From: Candidatus Oscillibacter excrementavium
GTDB lineage: Bacteria > Bacillota > Clostridia > Oscillospirales > Oscillospiraceae
Reading direction: 5' to 3'
NCBI GenBank assembly: GCA_019118505.1
Contig: DWYU01000061.1
Span: 1 to 37,847, forward strand
DNA: 37,847 nucleotides
Part shown: in pieces, positions 3,280 through 37,847 of the stretch
Position numbering within the stretch: position 1 is the first letter of the stretch
Layout: each line of letters starts with the position of its first letter
Made by a program: the position numbers and the translations under genes
The notes under the pieces: generated by a model
The model's database searches: none
Told to the model about the DNA's origin: nothing
The model's input: only the letters and a program-made list of their open reading frames with translations

Positions 3280-4770
3280 TCACTTGCCGGCCATGGCCAG
3301 GCTGATCTCCTCAATGGGCGGATTCTTGCCGGAGAACACGCCCATGATCTGTCCCTCGAACATGACCACGATCCGGTCGGAGACCTCCAGGATCTCGTCG
3401 AAGTCCGCGGAGATCAGCAGCACGCCGCAGCCCTTGTCCCGGGCGTCGATCATGGTGTCGTGGACAAAGCGGGTGGCGCCGATGTCCAATCCCCGGGTGG
3501 GGTGGACCGCCACCAGCAGGTCCGGCTCGCCCTCCAGCTCCCGGGCCAGGATGACCTTCTGCTGGTTGCCGCCGGAGAGGTTTCTCGTCTCCTGCTCCAC
3601 GGAGGTGCAGCGGATGTCGTACTTCTCTTGCATCTTCAGGGCGTAGTCCCGGATGGCCTTCTTTTTCAGGAAGTAGCCCTTGGCGCTGGAGAACTCCGGA
3701 GAGTCCGTGGCCTTGAGCACGATGTTGTCCTTCACGGACATATTGCCGATGAGGCCCATTTTGTTCCGGTCCTCGGGGATGTGGGAGACGTTTTCCAGAA
3801 TGAAGCCGTTGGGGGTGAACTGGGCCACCTTGGAGCCCTTCATGTCCACCTCGCCGCCGTCCGGCGTCAGCACGCCGGTGACCACCTGGGCCAGCTGGCT
3901 CTGGCCGTTGCCGTCCACGCCGGCGATGCCCACGATCTCCCCCCGGCCCACGGTCAGGGAGACGCCGTTGAGTCCCGCGTGCTTGGAGGCCTTGTGGTAG
4001 TCCACGTTCCGCAGCTGGATCACCGGGTCCCCCGGCTCCTCCACCTTCTCATAGTGAGAGGGCGTCAGCTCCCGGCCGATCATCAGGTTGGCCAGCTCCT
4101 GGCCGTTGGTCTCGGAACGGTCCAGGGTGGTGACCACCTCCCCGGCCCGCAGGATGGTGATGCGGTCGGAGATCTGCAGCACCTCCCGCATCTTGTGGCT
4201 GATGAAGATGACGCTCTTGCCCTCCTCCGTCAGCTTGCGGATGATCTGGAACAGACCCTCCACCTCAATGTCCGTCAGGGCGGCGGTGGGCTCGTCCAGG
4301 ATCAGCAGCTCCGCTCCCCGGTACAGTGTCTTCAGGATCTCCACCCGCTGCTGGGCGCCCACGGCGATCTCCGTGATGGGCTTGTCCAGCTCCACGTCCA
4401 GGCCGTACCGCTCCGCCAGCTCCAGGATCTCTTTCTTCCGGGCCTCCTTGTCGATGAAGATCCCCTTGGTGTTCCGGTCCCCCAGAATGATGTTCTCAAA
4501 CACCGTCATGGCCTCCACCAGCATGAAGTGCTGGTGCACCATGCCGATGCCCAGCTTCACCGCCTGGGCCGGGGAGTCGATGCGGACCTCCTTCCCGTTG
4601 AGGAAGATCTTCCCCTCCGTGGGCTGGTACAGTCCAATGAGGACGTTCATCAGCGTGCTCTTTCCGGCGCCGTTCTCCCCCAGCAGGGTATGTACCTCGC
4701 CCTTGCGGACGGACAGGTTGATGTCCCTGTTGGCGTAAAAGTCGCCGAACCGCTTGCTGACGTGCTCCAT
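3280..4770 (-). CDS. Double-domain ABC ATPase of the BMP importer (NupO-like)
   Basis: A 496-residue cytoplasmic ATPase made of two fused nucleotide-binding domains, as in the ribose/nucleoside (RbsA/NupO) class. Domain 1 has Walker A GENGAGKST, a variant signature VGAQQRVEI and Walker B LLILDEPTA. Domain 2 has a degenerate Walker A (GVDGNGQSQ), a good signature LSGGNQQKV and an altered Walker B region (LLVAVHPTRGLD). Such asymmetry is normal for the family. I chose the ATG at 4770 (MEHVSKRFG): it follows GGAGG and starts at the conserved domain edge. An in-frame ATG at 4833 would overlap the response-regulator gene. The gene sits between the regulator and the permeases in one transcription unit. 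Confidence 0.9.
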   Translation of the reverse strand: MEHVSKRFGDFYANRDINLSVRKGEVHTLLGENGAGKSTLMNVLIGLYQPTEGKIFLNGKEVRIDSPAQAVKLGIGMVHQHFMLVEAMTVFENIILGDRNTKGIFIDKEARKKEILELAERYGLDVELDKPITEIAVGAQQRVEILKTLYRGAELLILDEPTAALTDIEVEGLFQIIRKLTEEGKSVIFISHKMREVLQISDRITILRAGEVVTTLDRSETNGQELANLMIGRELTPSHYEKVEEPGDPVIQLRNVDYHKASKHAGLNGVSLTVGRGEIVGIAGVDGNGQSQLAQVVTGVLTPDGGEVDMKGSKVAQFTPNGFILENVSHIPEDRNKMGLIGNMSVKDNIVLKATDSPEFSSAKGYFLKKKAIRDYALKMQEKYDIRCTSVEQETRNLSGGNQQKVILARELEGEPDLLVAVHPTRGLDIGATRFVHDTMIDARDKGCGVLLISADFDEILEVSDRIVVMFEGQIMGVFSGKNPPIEEISLAMAGK

Positions 4771-32569: not shown

Positions 32570-32595
32570 GAATGAGAAAATGGAGGTGGATCGAT

Positions 32596-32976
32596 ATGGC
32601 AGCGTTTCAAAGCCTTTCGGAATCCGAGATGGAAATCATGCAGGTGATTTGGGAGACGGCCACCCCCGTAACCACCGCGTATTTACTGGAAGTCTTTGCC
32701 CACAAGGGTTGGAAAGGGCAGACAATCGCCACTTTTCTGACCCGCCTGGCAGACAAAGGCGTTCTGACTGTGACCCGGAAGGGGAAAGCGAACCTGTATG
32801 CCCCAGCCATATCCAAGGAGCAGTATCGTCAGAGGGAGGCAGCCAATGTCATCGACTCTATGTATCACGGTAGCCTTCAGAATTTTCTGACTGCCTTCTA
32901 TGGTGGAAAGGAAATCAGCCAGCATGAGTATAAAGAGCTGATACAGTGGCTCGATCAGGAGGTGTCCCGTGACTGA
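32596..32976 (+). CDS. BlaI/MecI/CopY-family repressor
   Basis: A 126-residue winged-helix repressor. FQSLSESEMEIMQVIWETATPVTTAYLLEVF is the family opening, and GWKGQTIATFLTRLADKGVLTVTRKGKANLYAP is the recognition helix and wing. The C-terminal half (YRQREAANVIDSMYHGSLQNFLTAFYG) is the dimerisation and cleavage region. I chose the ATG at 32596, which follows GGAGGTG. In the known system the repressor holds its own promoter shut until the paired membrane protease triggers its cleavage. It overlaps the sensor gene by eight bases and its predicted sites lie in the promoter. Confidence 0.92.
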   Translation: MAAFQSLSESEMEIMQVIWETATPVTTAYLLEVFAHKGWKGQTIATFLTRLADKGVLTVTRKGKANLYAPAISKEQYRQREAANVIDSMYHGSLQNFLTAFYGGKEISQHEYKELIQWLDQEVSRD

Positions 32977-34798
32977 ACTCCTTTTTCTCATGAGTATGAG
33001 TGCCTCTGTGTTAATCCTCTTATGTTTTCTTTTATTCCGGCTCACGGAGAATCGGCTTAGCGCCCGCCAGCAGTATACGGCTATGAAATTCGTGCTGATA
33101 TTTCTATTGCTTCCCATTGGACCGTGTTTGAGTTTTTTTAATGTAGTCTTGCAAGAAGCGGCGCAGACTCCTTCTTCGGAAATGATGCCAGTCCTGCCCG
33201 CAACATCTGGGCTCCGGCTTCCCGACGCAGTTCCAGGCGCTGCGCCGACGGAAGCGGCTGCGCTGCCGCAGCTGTCGATTTCCTCCGCCACTGGTCAAGC
33301 CTTCACAGCGCTATGGGGCCTGTGTGCAGCAGCCATCCTGATTTATAAATTTCTGCGCTTTACAAAATTCAAGCGGTGCCTGCGGCAAGCAGGACTGCTT
33401 GAGGTGTCGCCAGACACACAGCTTATATTCCGGACCTGTCTGCAAAAGCTGCATATCCGGAGGGCCGTCCGAATCCAGTTCAGTTCTGCAGTCCCCACTC
33501 CTTTCGCCACAGGGCTACTGAAACCCGCCATTATTCTGCCGAGCCGAAATTTTTCCAACCGGGAGCAGCAGTATATTCTTCTACACGAACTGACACACAT
33601 AAAATTCGGAGATTTATGGATCCGCTGGCTCTCTATGTTTGCATCGGCGGTCCATTGGTGGAATCCGCTGGTCTGGCTGTGGAATCGAAAGCTAGTCGAA
33701 CTCAGTGAGGCAAGCTGTGATGAACGGATTGTGTCGGAGTGGTCAACACAGGAGCGAATCGATTATGGTCGGGTCCTACTGAAAACGGCCTGCTATCGGG
33801 AAATGCCAGAAGGTCTGACGGCATCCATCTCTTCCGCAAGATTACTTCAAAGGAGGGTAACAAAAATGCTTCACGCCAAAGCACTTACGAAAAAGCAGAA
33901 AATGTTTTCTGTTGGTATAATTTTGGCTCTTCTGCTTTGCGGCTCGGCAGCAGCAGTGTCCATGCGAAGCCCTGTTGTCATTCAGGAAAATCCGAGACCG
34001 GCTGGCGTATCCGGACATGCTTCTGTCTCTTCGGGCCTCCAAAACACGCCCTCCAATGGGGCTCAGTTGAACGACCCGATTCTTTCTGCCACGCGAGAAG
34101 GTGACACCGGGAAAACGAATTGGACTTCGGGGGATTCTATAGCGGAAGTCGGCCAGAGCCAAGCGCGCGAGCCAGATATTTCCACGCTCACCCAGCCGCC
34201 TGGCGATGGGGCCGAAGATGAGGAGGCAGCTGAATATGCAGATCCCAGAGGCCAAGCAGGTCTCCCCCAAACATATCAAAACGCTCTGAGGGGGGATCCC
34301 ACGCTGATTTCGGCCCGAGGCGGTACGCTGCTGCCAGACGATGACCCGGAGTCCTACTATTCCATTGACGGCACTTTTTATAAGCTCTTTGTGTCGAAAG
34401 ACCACTATATGATGAGAGAATATGACGTTGGAAATTGGGATAGTTTGGATCCCTCCAAACAGCGGGCTGCCGCAGAGACCCTTGTAAACGGCGATTACCC
34501 CAGGAACAGTACCGGGGAGAGCTACGGCCCAAGCAGCTTGGCAAACTATGTAGGGTATAACCCCGATCTGACCGCGGCTCTCGGCACCCGCGGCGAAGCC
34601 GGATACGTCCGAGACGCCGACAGTGCCGCCCTGCCCAGCCTCCCCGCCGAAACATGTCCACATGAATTTATGGTTCCCCTCTACGACTCAGAGGGTACCG
34701 TGATCGGGGAATTCGTCGTCGGCTGCGGCGGGCATTTCAGCGGCGGCGCGACGGTGGACGCGGTGAAAACAGCTCTGGGGGAAAATTCCGCCCCATGA
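32969..34798 (+). CDS. BlaR1/MecR1-like M56 membrane metalloprotease with a non-penicillin-binding sensor tail
   Basis: A 609-residue protein starting at GTG (AGGAGGTGTCCC before it). Helices lie near 4-24, 40-60 and 110-128. A cytoplasmic zinc protease domain follows, with HELTH at 206-210 and LSEASCDERIVSEW as the third-ligand region, then a fourth helix at 312-332. Instead of the class-D-like penicillin-binding domain of BlaR1, the outer part is a low-complexity Ser/Gly/Glu linker (about 335-440) and a roughly 170-residue domain starting YYSIDGTFYKLFVSKDHYMM. I do not recognise that domain. It contains CPHEFMVPLYDSEGTVIGEFVVGCGG near the end. The signal sensed is unknown, so a beta-lactam role should not be assumed. 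Confidence 0.88.
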   Translation: MTELLFLMSMSASVLILLCFLLFRLTENRLSARQQYTAMKFVLIFLLLPIGPCLSFFNVVLQEAAQTPSSEMMPVLPATSGLRLPDAVPGAAPTEAAALPQLSISSATGQAFTALWGLCAAAILIYKFLRFTKFKRCLRQAGLLEVSPDTQLIFRTCLQKLHIRRAVRIQFSSAVPTPFATGLLKPAIILPSRNFSNREQQYILLHELTHIKFGDLWIRWLSMFASAVHWWNPLVWLWNRKLVELSEASCDERIVSEWSTQERIDYGRVLLKTACYREMPEGLTASISSARLLQRRVTKMLHAKALTKKQKMFSVGIILALLLCGSAAAVSMRSPVVIQENPRPAGVSGHASVSSGLQNTPSNGAQLNDPILSATREGDTGKTNWTSGDSIAEVGQSQAREPDISTLTQPPGDGAEDEEAAEYADPRGQAGLPQTYQNALRGDPTLISARGGTLLPDDDPESYYSIDGTFYKLFVSKDHYMMREYDVGNWDSLDPSKQRAAAETLVNGDYPRNSTGESYGPSSLANYVGYNPDLTAALGTRGEAGYVRDADSAALPSLPAETCPHEFMVPLYDSEGTVIGEFVVGCGGHFSGGATVDAVKTALGENSAP

Positions 34799-34829: not shown

Positions 34830-35541
34830 ATGATGTCATCTGATGGGAGTCCTCCCGACAAGCGCCGTCAGCAGGGCCTGCAGATGATCGGGGCCGGCGA
34901 TGACTACGACGCTTTCGACAAGTTCCTGGACCATGAGTATCTGATGTTTTGCCACAGCCACGACAAGCGGATCGGGTGGGAGACCACCATCATGGGCTGC
35001 GTCTACGATCACGCCGGCCCCGAGGCCCTGTGGTCCACCATGGCCAGCGTCACCCCCCCACTATTGGCAGCACATGATCGACGTGACGCTGAACGGCACG
35101 TTCAAGGAGGCCGTTCTGGAGCAGATCGGCGGTCTGGAGACCCACGGCGAGCCCCTGGAGATCATGGAGGATGACGAGAAGGTGGTCGTCTGGATGCGGC
35201 CCTGCGGCTCCGGCCAGTTCCTGCAGGAGACCCGGCATGTCTGTGAGGCCCCTCAGAAGTGCGTGCTCTGCAAGGCCTGCCCTCAGACCTGGAACATTGA
35301 CAACTTCCCGGTCTACTGTGTCCATGCCCCTCGGCAGGAGATCCTGTCCATCAAGCAGATCGGCTGGCTGGTCATGGTCAACTGCCCCCTGCCCGAGGAA
35401 CGCGACGTCCCCGGCTACATGTTTGCAAAGCAGAGCTGCGGCTTCGCGGTCTACAAGGACCCCAACGACATTCCGGAGTTCGTGTATAAGACCCTGGGCT
35501 TCGAGAAGCCCGCCCATGTGGAGAAACCCGCCAAGTGGTAA
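34830..35541 (+). pseudogene. Cysteine-rich protein of unknown function, frameshifted in a C run
   Basis: Two overlapping frames give one protein of about 236 residues. The first half (from ATG 34830, weak GGGAG site) reads GAGDDYDAFDKFLDHEYLMFCHSHDKRIGWETTIMGCVYDHAGPEALWSTMASVTP. The second (HYWQHMIDVTLNGTFKEAVLEQ onward) continues in another frame to 35541. The break is a run of seven C (35053-35059); six would join them. The product has PCGSG, then an ETRHVC...CVLCKACPQ cluster and later C residues (VYCVH, MVNCP, KQSCGF), suggesting metal or Fe-S binding. I do not recognise the family. The 5' end may also be truncated, since the first 20 residues look unlike the rest. Confidence 0.7.
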
Positions 35542-35577
35542 CAACTGCATCGAGGAACCACCCTCGCCCCTCGTGAA

Positions 35578-35610
35578 AATGAAGCCCTGTCAATTTGACA
35601 GGGCTTCATT
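35578..35610. terminator. Perfect 15-bp hairpin terminator after the cysteine-rich gene
   Basis: AATGAAGCCCTGTCA (35578-35592) pairs with TGACAGGGCTTCATT (35596-35610), loop ATT. Weak T-rich sequence follows on both strands. It separates the frameshifted gene from the recombinase pair. The remaining 35611-35756 holds only the recombinase leader. Confidence 0.8.
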
Positions 35611-35756
35611 AATAGGTGTTTGATATGCGCTGGTCTTGCCTAGAACGACTAACAAACGAAAACAGAGGAAAGAAAGCGGGGGGCCCGCAGTCTCCCCCGC
35701 ACATAATGTCCCTCCCACAAGATACAATAAAGAAAAATCTTGCAGGAGGAAATCCA

Positions 35757-36602
35757 ATGTATGCATGGAACATTTCCGGCGATCAGTTCGCCGCCTACAA
35801 CGCCCATCTCTGCGGCGAGGAGCGGAGCGCCGGCACCATTGAAAACTATCTCCGCCATGTGAGGACCTTTGCCGCCTGGGCGGGCGGCAGACCGGTGACC
35901 CGGGAGCTGGCCGCCGAATGGAAGGCCCATCTGCTCACTCAGGACTATGCCCCGGTGACCATCAATGCCATGCTGGCAGCCCTGAACGGCTTTTTTCACT
36001 TCCTGGGCCGGGATGACTGCCAGGTAAAATTCCTGAAAGTCCAGCGCCGGCTGTTCCGGGACGCGGGCCGGGAACTGACCCGCCCGGAGTACGAGCGGCT
36101 GCTTGCCGCCGCTCAGTCCCGCGGTCAGGAGCGGCTGGCCCTGCTGATGGAGGCCATCTGCGCCACCGGCATCCGGGTCAGTGAGGTGAAATATATCACC
36201 GTGGAGGCCGCCCGGCGGGGGCGGACAGACATCTCGTTGAAAGGCAAGATCCGCACGATCCTGATCCCCGCCAAGCTGTGCCGGAAACTGCTGAAGTACG
36301 CCCAAAAACACAAAACCGCCTCCGGTGAGATCTTCCTCACCAGAAGCGGAAAGAGTTTATCGCGCCGCCAGATCTGGGCGGAACTGAAACGGCTTTGCAA
36401 ATACGCCGGGGTAGAGCCCTCGAAGGTGTTCCCCCACAACCTGCGGCACCTGTTCGCCACGACGTTTTACAAGGCCTGCAGGGACATCGTCAAACTGGCC
36501 GACGTGCTGGGACATTCGTCCATCGAGACCACCCGGCTCTACCTGGCGGCCTCCGGCGCAGAGCACGCCCGGCAGATGGAGCGGCTGGGACTGGTGTCAT
36601 AG
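35757..36602 (+). CDS. Tyrosine recombinase 1 (XerC/D-like, catalytically complete)
   Basis: A 281-residue site-specific recombinase. The N-terminal SAM-like core-binding domain covers about 8-95 (EERSAGTIENYLRHVRTFAAWAGG). The catalytic domain (about 110-275) has all expected residues: Arg in ATGIRVSEV, Lys in LKGKIRTI, His-x-x-Arg in PHNLRHLFATT, His in LGHSSIETT and the nucleophile Tyr in TRLYL. I chose the ATG at 35757 (MYAWNISGDQF), preceded by AGGAGGAAATCCA; the longer frame from 35616 runs through non-coding leader. Its stop is two bases before the left 16-base inverted repeat of the putative invertible segment. It is the likely enzyme that inverts it. Confidence 0.92.
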   Translation: MYAWNISGDQFAAYNAHLCGEERSAGTIENYLRHVRTFAAWAGGRPVTRELAAEWKAHLLTQDYAPVTINAMLAALNGFFHFLGRDDCQVKFLKVQRRLFRDAGRELTRPEYERLLAAAQSRGQERLALLMEAICATGIRVSEVKYITVEAARRGRTDISLKGKIRTILIPAKLCRKLLKYAQKHKTASGEIFLTRSGKSLSRRQIWAELKRLCKYAGVEPSKVFPHNLRHLFATTFYKACRDIVKLADVLGHSSIETTRLYLAASGAEHARQMERLGLVS

Positions 36603-36668
36603 GCAAAATCAATATTTTGCAGTAAGAACCGGGATAACCCTCCATTTTTTCCTACATAAAGTGGCTCA

Positions 36669-36697
36669 ATTATAGCACGGATCGACAAAAAGCGCAA
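36669..36697 (-). promoter_or_regulatory. Promoter inside the putative invertible segment
   Basis: On the minus strand a perfect TATAAT (36669-36674) lies 17 bases from TTGCGC (36692-36697, three of six). In the orientation shown it fires leftward, antisense to recombinase 1. After inversion it would fire rightward about 77 bases before the recombinase 2 ATG. Confidence 0.6.
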
Positions 36698-36778
36698 GAG
36701 AGTTCCTGATTTTGGGCGCACGAAACCGGGCCGGGAAGAAAATCTTTTTTCTCGGTCCCCTTTTTCATGCCCTGATAG

Positions 36779-36834
36779 GGCCGGGAGAGTGCTCGGACGG
36801 GGCGGACCCGCTCAAAATCCACACCCTCCCGGCC
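36779..36834. repeat. 9-bp inverted repeat with 38-base loop inside the segment
   Basis: GGCCGGGAG (36779-36787) and CTCCCGGCC (36826-36834) could form a stem in the transcript, or a binding site for an accessory protein. An imperfect A/T-rich hairpin with T-runs near 36733-36765 lies beside it and may act as a terminator. Confidence 0.5.
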
Positions 36835-36890
36835 GATTTCTATCTGCGGACGTATTCAAAATATTGATTTTGTTGAGAGGGGGCTGAGAG

Positions 36891-37745
36891 ATGCGCGGAG
36901 CAGGCGCGGCCCGCCAAAGGGCGGCACCGCTGAAAAAGACCGGCGTGGAGGTCAGCCAGGCGGCCATCCAGGCCTATCTGGCGGACCTGAGCGGCCGGGG
37001 CCGCCGGGAGGAGACCGTGCGGTTTTACGCTGCCAAGCTGAAGGCGTTCTACGACTACCTGCCGCCGGACAAGCAGGTCAGCCGGGACACGCTGGAGGCG
37101 TGGCGGCAGGCGCTGCTGGCGGAGGGCTACGCCCCGGCCACGGTGAACACCCATGTCTCCGCCGTCAACGGCCTGCTGGAGTTTCTGGACCGCCGGGACC
37201 TGCAACTGATCGGACAGCTGCAGGCGGCGCCGGAGCCGCAGCCGGAGTTGAGCCGGACGGAATATCTGCGGCTGCTGTCCGCCGCCCGGACGCTGGAAAA
37301 GGAGCGGACGTATCTTCTGGTGAAGGCCATTGCCCTGACGGGCATCCATGTCCGGGAGCTGCCCCAGGTCACGGTGGAGTCTGTTGAGGATGGCCGCCTG
37401 CTGGCTGGCTCCGGCGGGGAGAAACGGTGGGTCCAGCTGCCAGCCTGCCTGCGGGAGGAGCTGTTCTCCTATTGCCGGCGGCAGGGGGTGACGGCGGGGC
37501 CGGTGTTCGTCACCAGAAGCGGCAAGCCCCTGCGGCGGACCCAGGTGACGGGAGAGATCCAAAGCCTCGCCGGCACGGCCCGGGTGGCGCCGGAGAAGTG
37601 CAATCCCCGGTGCCTGCGGAAGCTGTACTTGACCACTCAGGCGGAGATCGATCGGAGCGTACAACTGCTGGCGGAGCAGGCCTATGAGCGGATGCTGGAC
37701 ACGGAACAACTGGCCGCCGGGTGGGAGAGGATAGATCATCTATGA
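36891..37745 (+). CDS. Tyrosine recombinase-like protein 2 (catalytic residues degenerate)
   Basis: A 284-residue paralogue of recombinase 1, with the same core-binding domain (YLADLSGRGRREETVRFYAAKLKAFYDYL) and the same catalytic-domain layout. Key positions differ: the first Arg motif reads LTGIHVREL (Arg to His), the HxxR box reads PRCLRKLYL (His lost, Arg kept), and the LGHSxxxTTxxYL end is replaced by LAEQAYERMLDTEQLA, lacking the His and a correctly placed Tyr. The enzyme is probably unable to cut DNA itself. It may bind the repeats and steer recombinase 1, or be decaying. GAGAGGGGGC precedes the ATG, just outside the right repeat, so its transcription may depend on the segment's orientation. 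Confidence 0.8.
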   Translation: MRGAGAARQRAAPLKKTGVEVSQAAIQAYLADLSGRGRREETVRFYAAKLKAFYDYLPPDKQVSRDTLEAWRQALLAEGYAPATVNTHVSAVNGLLEFLDRRDLQLIGQLQAAPEPQPELSRTEYLRLLSAARTLEKERTYLLVKAIALTGIHVRELPQVTVESVEDGRLLAGSGGEKRWVQLPACLREELFSYCRRQGVTAGPVFVTRSGKPLRRTQVTGEIQSLAGTARVAPEKCNPRCLRKLYLTTQAEIDRSVQLLAEQAYERMLDTEQLAAGWERIDHL

Positions 37746-37847
37746 AAGATGGATCCATGCTGCGAATGGGCGAAAATCCCTTTCAAGGATAGGCGAAAGA
37801 CGGAAAACACCGTGAGGAAAGTGAGCCAATACCTGATTGAATAAAAA

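Follow-up and report, generated by a model that had tools for sequence, protein, structure and literature searches.

A probable promoter switch in Oscillospiraceae with a catalytically dead recombinase paralogue as the first switched gene

In Candidatus Oscillibacter excrementavium, a short segment bounded by inverted repeats separates two genes of the tyrosine recombinase family: rec1, encoding an intact Xer-like recombinase, and rec2, encoding a paralogue in which catalytic residues are missing. With good confidence, this arrangement is proposed to be a Fim-type promoter and terminator switch that controls surface proteins and is inverted by Rec1; a role of Rec2 as modulator is about an even question. 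Among gut bacteria, promoter inversion close to surface genes is widespread, and the switch itself is of a known kind; the new aspect is the dead paralogue heading the switched operon. Judged by its sequence, Rec2 is unable to cut DNA. A pair of recombinase genes next to a switch does not imply a pair of enzymes, and an ON-linked dead recombinase would, if the proposal is true, be a simple feedback part.

Anatomy of the switch and its family

The window, that is, the whole stretch of DNA analysed, is one entire contig of 37,847 bases, which ends 102 bases past rec2 (Table 1). Each arm of the inverted repeat reads CAAAAT-CAAT-ATTTTG, two half-sites flanking an asymmetric 4-base centre. In the source genome the exact 16-mer (0 mismatches) occurs at these two arms only; with up to two mismatches it occurs at five additional places, and a reversed control pattern at none. 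In the region 36400-37100, with arms at least 100 bases apart, the longest exact inverted repeat was 16 bases, against 14 for the best of 1000 dinucleotide shuffles. Since 16 exceeds the shuffle maximum and the 16-mer is otherwise absent from the genome, a chance origin of the repeat pair at 36604 and 36857 is unlikely. An earlier note on this DNA had described perfect 16-base repeats of this dyad form bounding 237 bases, and exactly such arms were found.

The segment contains a putative sigma-70-type promoter with TG ahead of its -10 box, now directed at rec1, which would face rec2 once inverted. A stricter consensus scan of 35400-37847 returned no promoters because the -35 box matches at just three of six positions; the same layout is seen in relatives, and the case for a promoter within the segment rests on this conservation and on the sequence. 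Once flipped, the segment would carry TATAAT on the plus strand at 36802-36807; transcription would then begin near 36814, leaving about 77 bases to the rec2 ATG at 36891. The promoter located here thus agrees with the earlier description of a TATAAT promoter facing away from rec2 and brought to that distance by inversion, and the neighbouring details also held: a rec2 ribosome site just beyond the right repeat, and a rec1 stop close to the left one, where a single base separates the two. The segment also carries a terminator-like hairpin, which is weak evidence taken alone, the region holding three such sites against a shuffle mean of 2.5.

Table 1. Features of the switch locus in the window
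Feature	Position	Strand	Basis or remark
rec1, Xer-like tyrosine recombinase, 281 aa, likely invertase	35757..36602	+	PF00589 E 3.1e-25, PF02899
Left inverted repeat, CAAAATCAATATTTTG	36604-36619	+	exact repeat search, shuffles
Putative invertible segment, 237 bases	36620..36856	.	present in OFF orientation
Putative sigma-70-type promoter, TTGCGC-17-TATAAT	36669..36697	-	TTGCGC 36697-36692, TATAAT 36674-36669, spacer ending TGC
Terminator-like hairpin with T tail, inside segment	36728..36758	+	terminator scan
Right inverted repeat, exact reverse complement of CAAAATCAATATTTTG	36857-36872	-	repeat search
rec2 ribosome-binding site, GAGAGGGGG	36875..36883	+	by eye, just beyond right arm
rec2, dead tyrosine recombinase paralogue, 284 aa	36891..37745	+	PF02899 E 3.1e-9, PF00589 absent

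The source genome carries six rec1-type switches, on contigs C120, C51, C86, C119, C159 and C100. Altogether 41 rec1 copies were read, 37 of them with flanks (60 relatives, 86 genus genomes) and four in short loci from a search of 394 genomes of the order. The order search, from which eight Rec2-type matches outside the genus were also read, scored at most six candidates per genome, and its counts are lower bounds. Four of the 41 rec1 contigs end 67-208 bases past rec1, inside the switch. An inverted repeat pair lies 3' of rec1 in 36 of the remaining 37 copies, with 192-299 bases between the arms (383 in one exception, G269) and exact cores of 10-23 bases (imperfect in G025C45). Cores of 10-12 bases are also reached by shuffles, so the case for those switches rests on position. 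The one loss among the 37 readable copies is in G061C1, where the switch is gone and about 75 bases separate rec1 from rec2; loss of the repeats beside a conserved recombinase pair, named in the earlier note as evidence against a switch, was seen in this copy only. The switch is followed by rec2 or its remains in 30 of the 41 copies and by no rec2 in seven, the contig being too short in four. The phase-switch reading of the earlier note is well supported, since a unit of repeats, promoter and terminator recurs in tens of copies, with both orientations represented in the family.

Half-sites near gACAgAAT and ATTyTGTC are common to the arms of the family, and the arm centre differs among the six copies of the source genome. 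Different centres could stop the six switches recombining with one another, and many homologous switches with different core bases offer a natural series for site specificity. A tandem double left repeat was seen next to one switch in the ON orientation (G079C283; L101, bases 3320-3370).

Rec1 and its paralogue Rec2

The rec1 reading frame is open back to a GTG at 35616, and the ATG at 35757 was preferred for its AGGAGG site (by eye). In alignment, the catalytic set R-K-H-R-H-Y is complete in all 40 intact Rec1 proteins, the window's included (36 + 4; the frameshifted rec1 of G061C3 was excluded from the active-site table). Solved XerA-type (4a8e) and XerD (1a0p) proteins align with Rec1 across the active site, and the scores of Rec1 against the XerC, XerD and XerA models lie under their curated cut-offs.

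Rec2 is about 35% identical to Rec1. A profile search revealed the N-terminal SAM-like domain (PF02899) and no Phage_integrase match. The catalytic Tyr is missing from 36 of 36 aligned Rec2 proteins, the window's included (28 + 8), and so are the His of the HxxR box (PRCLRK in most) and the His of the LGH motif. The broken or cut rec2 genes of G000C100, G007C44 and G081C156 were excluded from this table; that of G108e, which has an internal deletion, was kept in it and left out of the distance comparison. Against Xer proteins and lambda integrase, alignment of the Rec2 profile stops at position 229 of 260, and divergence from Rec1 is greatest at the C-terminal end. An AlphaFold2 model based on 26 Rec2 rows (mean pLDDT 89.0, pTM 0.61) has the recombinase fold, with a single long helix predicted at 239-276 in place of the Tyr-bearing helices. 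Foldseek matched this model to XerA (E 2e-11), lambda integrase, XerH and Cre with TM-scores of only 0.39-0.61, which may reflect a free hinge joining the two domains. In the tree, a single 100/100 branch separates Rec1 from Rec2, with warnings of long branches, G067C380 and G108e among those of Rec2. The earlier reading of two tyrosine recombinase genes flanking the switch hence stands for Rec1, with its intact active site, and not for Rec2. Its suggestion that the switch controls its own recombinase gene likewise needs correction: the gene that would be driven in the ON orientation encodes the dead paralogue, and intact Rec1 lies on the far side.

It might be argued that Rec2 is a decayed, functionless duplicate beside a switch and a Rec1 that work as proposed. 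Besides the seven rec1 switches without rec2, damage was found in four copies of the gene (G000C100, G025C45, G007C44 and G108e), and Rec2 is therefore not required. Decay of this kind is nevertheless unlikely in view of the substitution ratios: between the window and L040, Rec2 has dN 0.12 and dS 0.49 (154 codons), hence dN/dS 0.25, with dN 0.16 and dS 0.50 for Rec1, and among the 14 closest pairs listed dN/dS ranges over 0.24-0.72 for Rec2 and 0.16-0.56 for Rec1. Rec2 proteins also end in a conserved motif particular to them, EQxYERMLDTEQLAxGW. The Rec2 active site was read in 15 of the 86 genus genomes (in one more, G081, the gene is truncated at the contig end), and Rec2 occurs in at least eight further genomes across two families of the order; the active-site loss is common to both families, and is therefore old and kept.

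Two of the damaged copies have features of their own. In G108e (L109, minus strand), the middle of Rec2 is lost and the remainder is fused in frame into the next surface protein, giving an ORF of 1721 aa. In G007C44 (L052, from 7823), Rec2 stops after about 65 residues and enters another frame, which by eye we take to resemble an insertion-element helper ATPase.

Quite unlikely is a second reading, in which Rec2 is a regulator apart from inversion, for example a DNA-binding regulator of the surface operon. It would suit the five loci with Rec2 and no nearby rec1 (G007C39, G062C1, G101C25, G063C1 and G063C7) and the four of eight short loci (about 1.5 kb of flank) in which rec1 is not near Rec2. 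However, Rec2 is much less basic than Rec1, with a median charge of +6 versus +20 overall and 0 versus +5 over the first 100 residues, and the distances of the two proteins are correlated (r 0.48 for 21 pairs, a value reached in 37 of 5000 permutations; r 0.43 in an 18-pair subset, 0 of 5000 as high). Some Rec2-type genes without adjacent rec1 (L104, L105 and L106; G101, and G063 twice) form a separate, long-branched group.

Orientation of the segment and the genes downstream

The promoter points toward rec1 (OFF) in 27 of the 36 switches and away from it (ON) in eight, namely G000C100, G025C45, G013C25, G061C3, G079C283, G067C380, G140 and G269. One switch, G020C7, was classed as unclear, a weak promoter being scored ON and a TATAAT read by eye in the opposite direction. 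Several ON segments align better with OFF relatives when inverted. G061C3 matches G108a over 165 bases at 82% (score 116 inverted, 35 direct) and G018C19 at 107 against 43; relative to G108d, G079C283 scores 108 inverted and 57 direct, and G140 96 and 53. The inverted preference is weak for G067C380 (46 against 34 direct) and G013C25 (46 against 44), the latter a near tie; G013C12 is another, the two directions scoring 54 and 52. For G025C45 the automatic repeat finder chose the wrong pair, and hand-set arms gave ON, with an inverted alignment of 70 against 40. G108c was called OFF by its promoter alone, its alignment being poor both ways (34 and 34), and G140, G269, G414 and G463 were assigned by eye together with alignment scores. 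A second G108b switch, oriented from its promoter reading, was left out of the segment alignments and of the terminator scan. That scan covered 35 segments, one of them unclear, and found plus-strand terminators in 12 of 26 OFF and 0 of 8 ON segments, and minus-strand terminators in 2 of 8 ON and 1 of 26 OFF segments. The better inverted alignments and the strand of the terminators together indicate that, over evolutionary time, the segment has changed direction relative to its conserved flanks.

An alternative in which the repeats never recombine, and are protein-binding sites in a bidirectional promoter region of fixed orientation, draws on the window's own locus, for which no flipped copy was found in the source genome or the 86 genus genomes. 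The switch has a single match in the source genome, a genome-wide contig scan gave three loci only, and the window's switch has the same orientation as the two relatives nearest to it (identities of 77% and 71%). A flipped orientation in related genomes, sought at the suggestion of the earlier note, was accordingly found for the family and not for this locus. A fixed region is nonetheless very improbable given homologous segments in both orientations between conserved flanks, and the four fetched contigs that stop inside the switch also argue against it. A further bias was noted by eye in the order search, where the contig start lay within 300 bases of the 3' end in 11 matches and of the 5' end in two (binomial p 0.022, among the matches listed, counted whether or not a switch is present); it is as if assemblies break in the switch, with reads holding both orientations.

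Because the seven switches without rec2 are themselves mostly OFF (five OFF; one ON, G013C25; one unclear, G020C7), the bias toward OFF is not attributable to Rec2. Apparent damage at each of the first two ON loci prompted the idea that this orientation accompanies damaged recombinase genes, which would point to a resetting of the switch by Rec2. Among 29 rec1-rec2 pairs with a switch, recombinase genes were damaged in three of seven ON and two of 22 OFF loci (Fisher p 0.075, post hoc), the diverged Rec2 of G067C380 and the contig-cut Rec2 of G081C156 being counted as undamaged; no such link is claimed.

Downstream genes were surveyed in 35 loci with at least 1 kb of sequence, five of them Rec2 loci without rec1, and ORFs were sought near the end of rec2 or, failing that, of rec1. 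An ORF of at least 300 aa starts nearby in 27 loci and none is close by in eight. Signal-like hydrophobic starts were read from the table in 22 of the 27 ORFs, which reach 3478 aa and include one at a Rec2 locus without rec1 (G063C7). Pfam was run on ten downstream ORFs, seven large and three small. It revealed a GBS104-like pilus tip domain with VWA followed by a sortase (C86), Cna_B followed by a sortase (C119), SLH with a sortase further along (G004C2), SLH (G011C10 and G108f) and VWA (G108a); the partial ORF of C51 had no Pfam match. Sortase genes thus accompany surface-protein genes in three switch copies. An SLH-like fragment was seen by eye in G108b, the downstream proteins of G079C283 and G072C36 appear non-secreted, and the rec1-only switches of G011C10, G013C25 and G108f run directly into such large surface-type proteins. 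Control of genes beyond the right end of the window, raised as a possibility in the earlier note, is in keeping with the large secreted proteins and occasional sortases of these relatives, from which we infer that ON transcription would reach surface genes past the end of the window's contig. Surface proteins under these switches probably affect bacterial attachment in the gut.

Proposed mechanism and comparison with known systems

It is proposed that Rec1, the predicted invertase, binds both inverted repeats and inverts the 237 bases between them. In the OFF orientation, the promoter would yield RNA antisense to the 3' end of rec1, and the terminator would halt rec1 transcripts short of rec2. 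In the ON orientation, the promoter would drive rec2 and then, as in the relatives, large secreted surface protein genes, with a sortase in some copies; readthrough from rec1 would no longer be blocked by the terminator. Rec2 would thus accumulate mainly in ON cells, where it may act on Rec1 protein to protein, either by forming inactive mixed complexes that slow flipping or by biasing its direction, and so feed the state of the switch back onto its own flipping.

Modulation of Rec1 is the most likely role for Rec2 because ON cells would be the main producers of the protein and the recombinase fold has been kept; overall, we regard it as about an even question whether Rec2 modulates Rec1, and the readings of Rec2 as a passenger or as an unrelated regulator take up most of the remaining probability. 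More tentatively, and a little short of that even balance, the pseudo-recombinase family may represent phase-locked feedback, in which a dead copy of the invertase, made only in the ON phase, joins Rec1 complexes and sets the duration of ON, with several switches of different core sites operating in parallel within a genome. Rec1 and Rec2 alike match the fold of XerC, XerD and XerA; XerC as well as XerD is catalytic, which Rec2 is not. Xer subunits touch through their C-terminal helices, according to excerpts of one report (PMC3646895), and by analogy Rec2 could plausibly influence Rec1 through such a contact. Action between proteins is favoured by these Xer contacts, by the C-terminal divergence of Rec2 and by its lower charge.

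The closest comparison is with the fim system of Escherichia coli (fimE - fimS - fimA), in which short inverted repeats likewise flank a promoter, a tyrosine recombinase gene ends just ahead of the left repeat, and surface-structure genes lie on the opposite side. Both recombinases of the fim switch are active, and neither belongs to the switched operon. The present family differs in having one active recombinase, a dead paralogue that opens the switched operon, and several switches per genome whose core bases differ. That Rec1 and Rec2 are both working enzymes, like FimB and FimE, with the switch controlling one of them, is hardly credible: Rec2 is full length and keeps the fold, but the missing Tyr and both His in every Rec2 read, together with the predicted continuous helix, leave this reading refuted by the sequence unless Rec2 cuts by an unfamiliar route. 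In fim, termination of the fimE transcript depends on orientation, as described in excerpts of PMC2784873, which provides a precedent for the release of rec1 readthrough in the ON phase.

The same excerpts describe the cwpV switch of Clostridioides difficile, with inverted repeats of about 20 bases and about 200 bases between them ahead of a large cell-wall protein, and with a segment flipped by RecV, an Xer-type recombinase (PMC2784873). The cwpV promoter lies outside the segment and recV is not close by; here the promoter is inside and rec1 adjacent. Gut invertons, as described in excerpts of PMC11892184, resemble the present switches in having a promoter between inverted repeats, an adjacent tyrosine recombinase and surface genes near by, and in occurring in Clostridia, where inverton group 139 is linked to an invertase group. 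In the same excerpts, invertases near invertons are generally not under the inverton promoter, group 145 being a possible exception (PMC11892184). Compared by description with those invertons, the present family differs in that a recombinase paralogue, albeit a dead one, sits under the inverton promoter. A dead recombinase paralogue as the first gene of a switched operon was not found in the literature searched, most of it outside subscription journals. To our knowledge, the means by which a switch governs its rate of flipping are little known outside fim.

A third recombinase-derived protein of 423-429 aa was observed at two loci (L092:6324-7595 and L050:2748-4037, both on the minus strand), one copy lying 3' of a rec1 switch without rec2 and the other ahead of a Rec2 gene without rec1. 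It matches the Phage_integrase profile up to about position 139 of 172 only and appears, by eye, to consist of a pair of degenerate recombinase domains with an additional C-terminal part; such switches may have it as one more accessory. Also in L050 (79-1407, minus strand), the ORF after the Rec2 gene of G007C39 has a match to the Cas9 alpha-helical lobe (PF18470). In the window itself, an overlapping pair of genes on the plus strand at 32572-34798 encodes a Penicillinase_R repressor and a BlaR1-type M56 peptidase.
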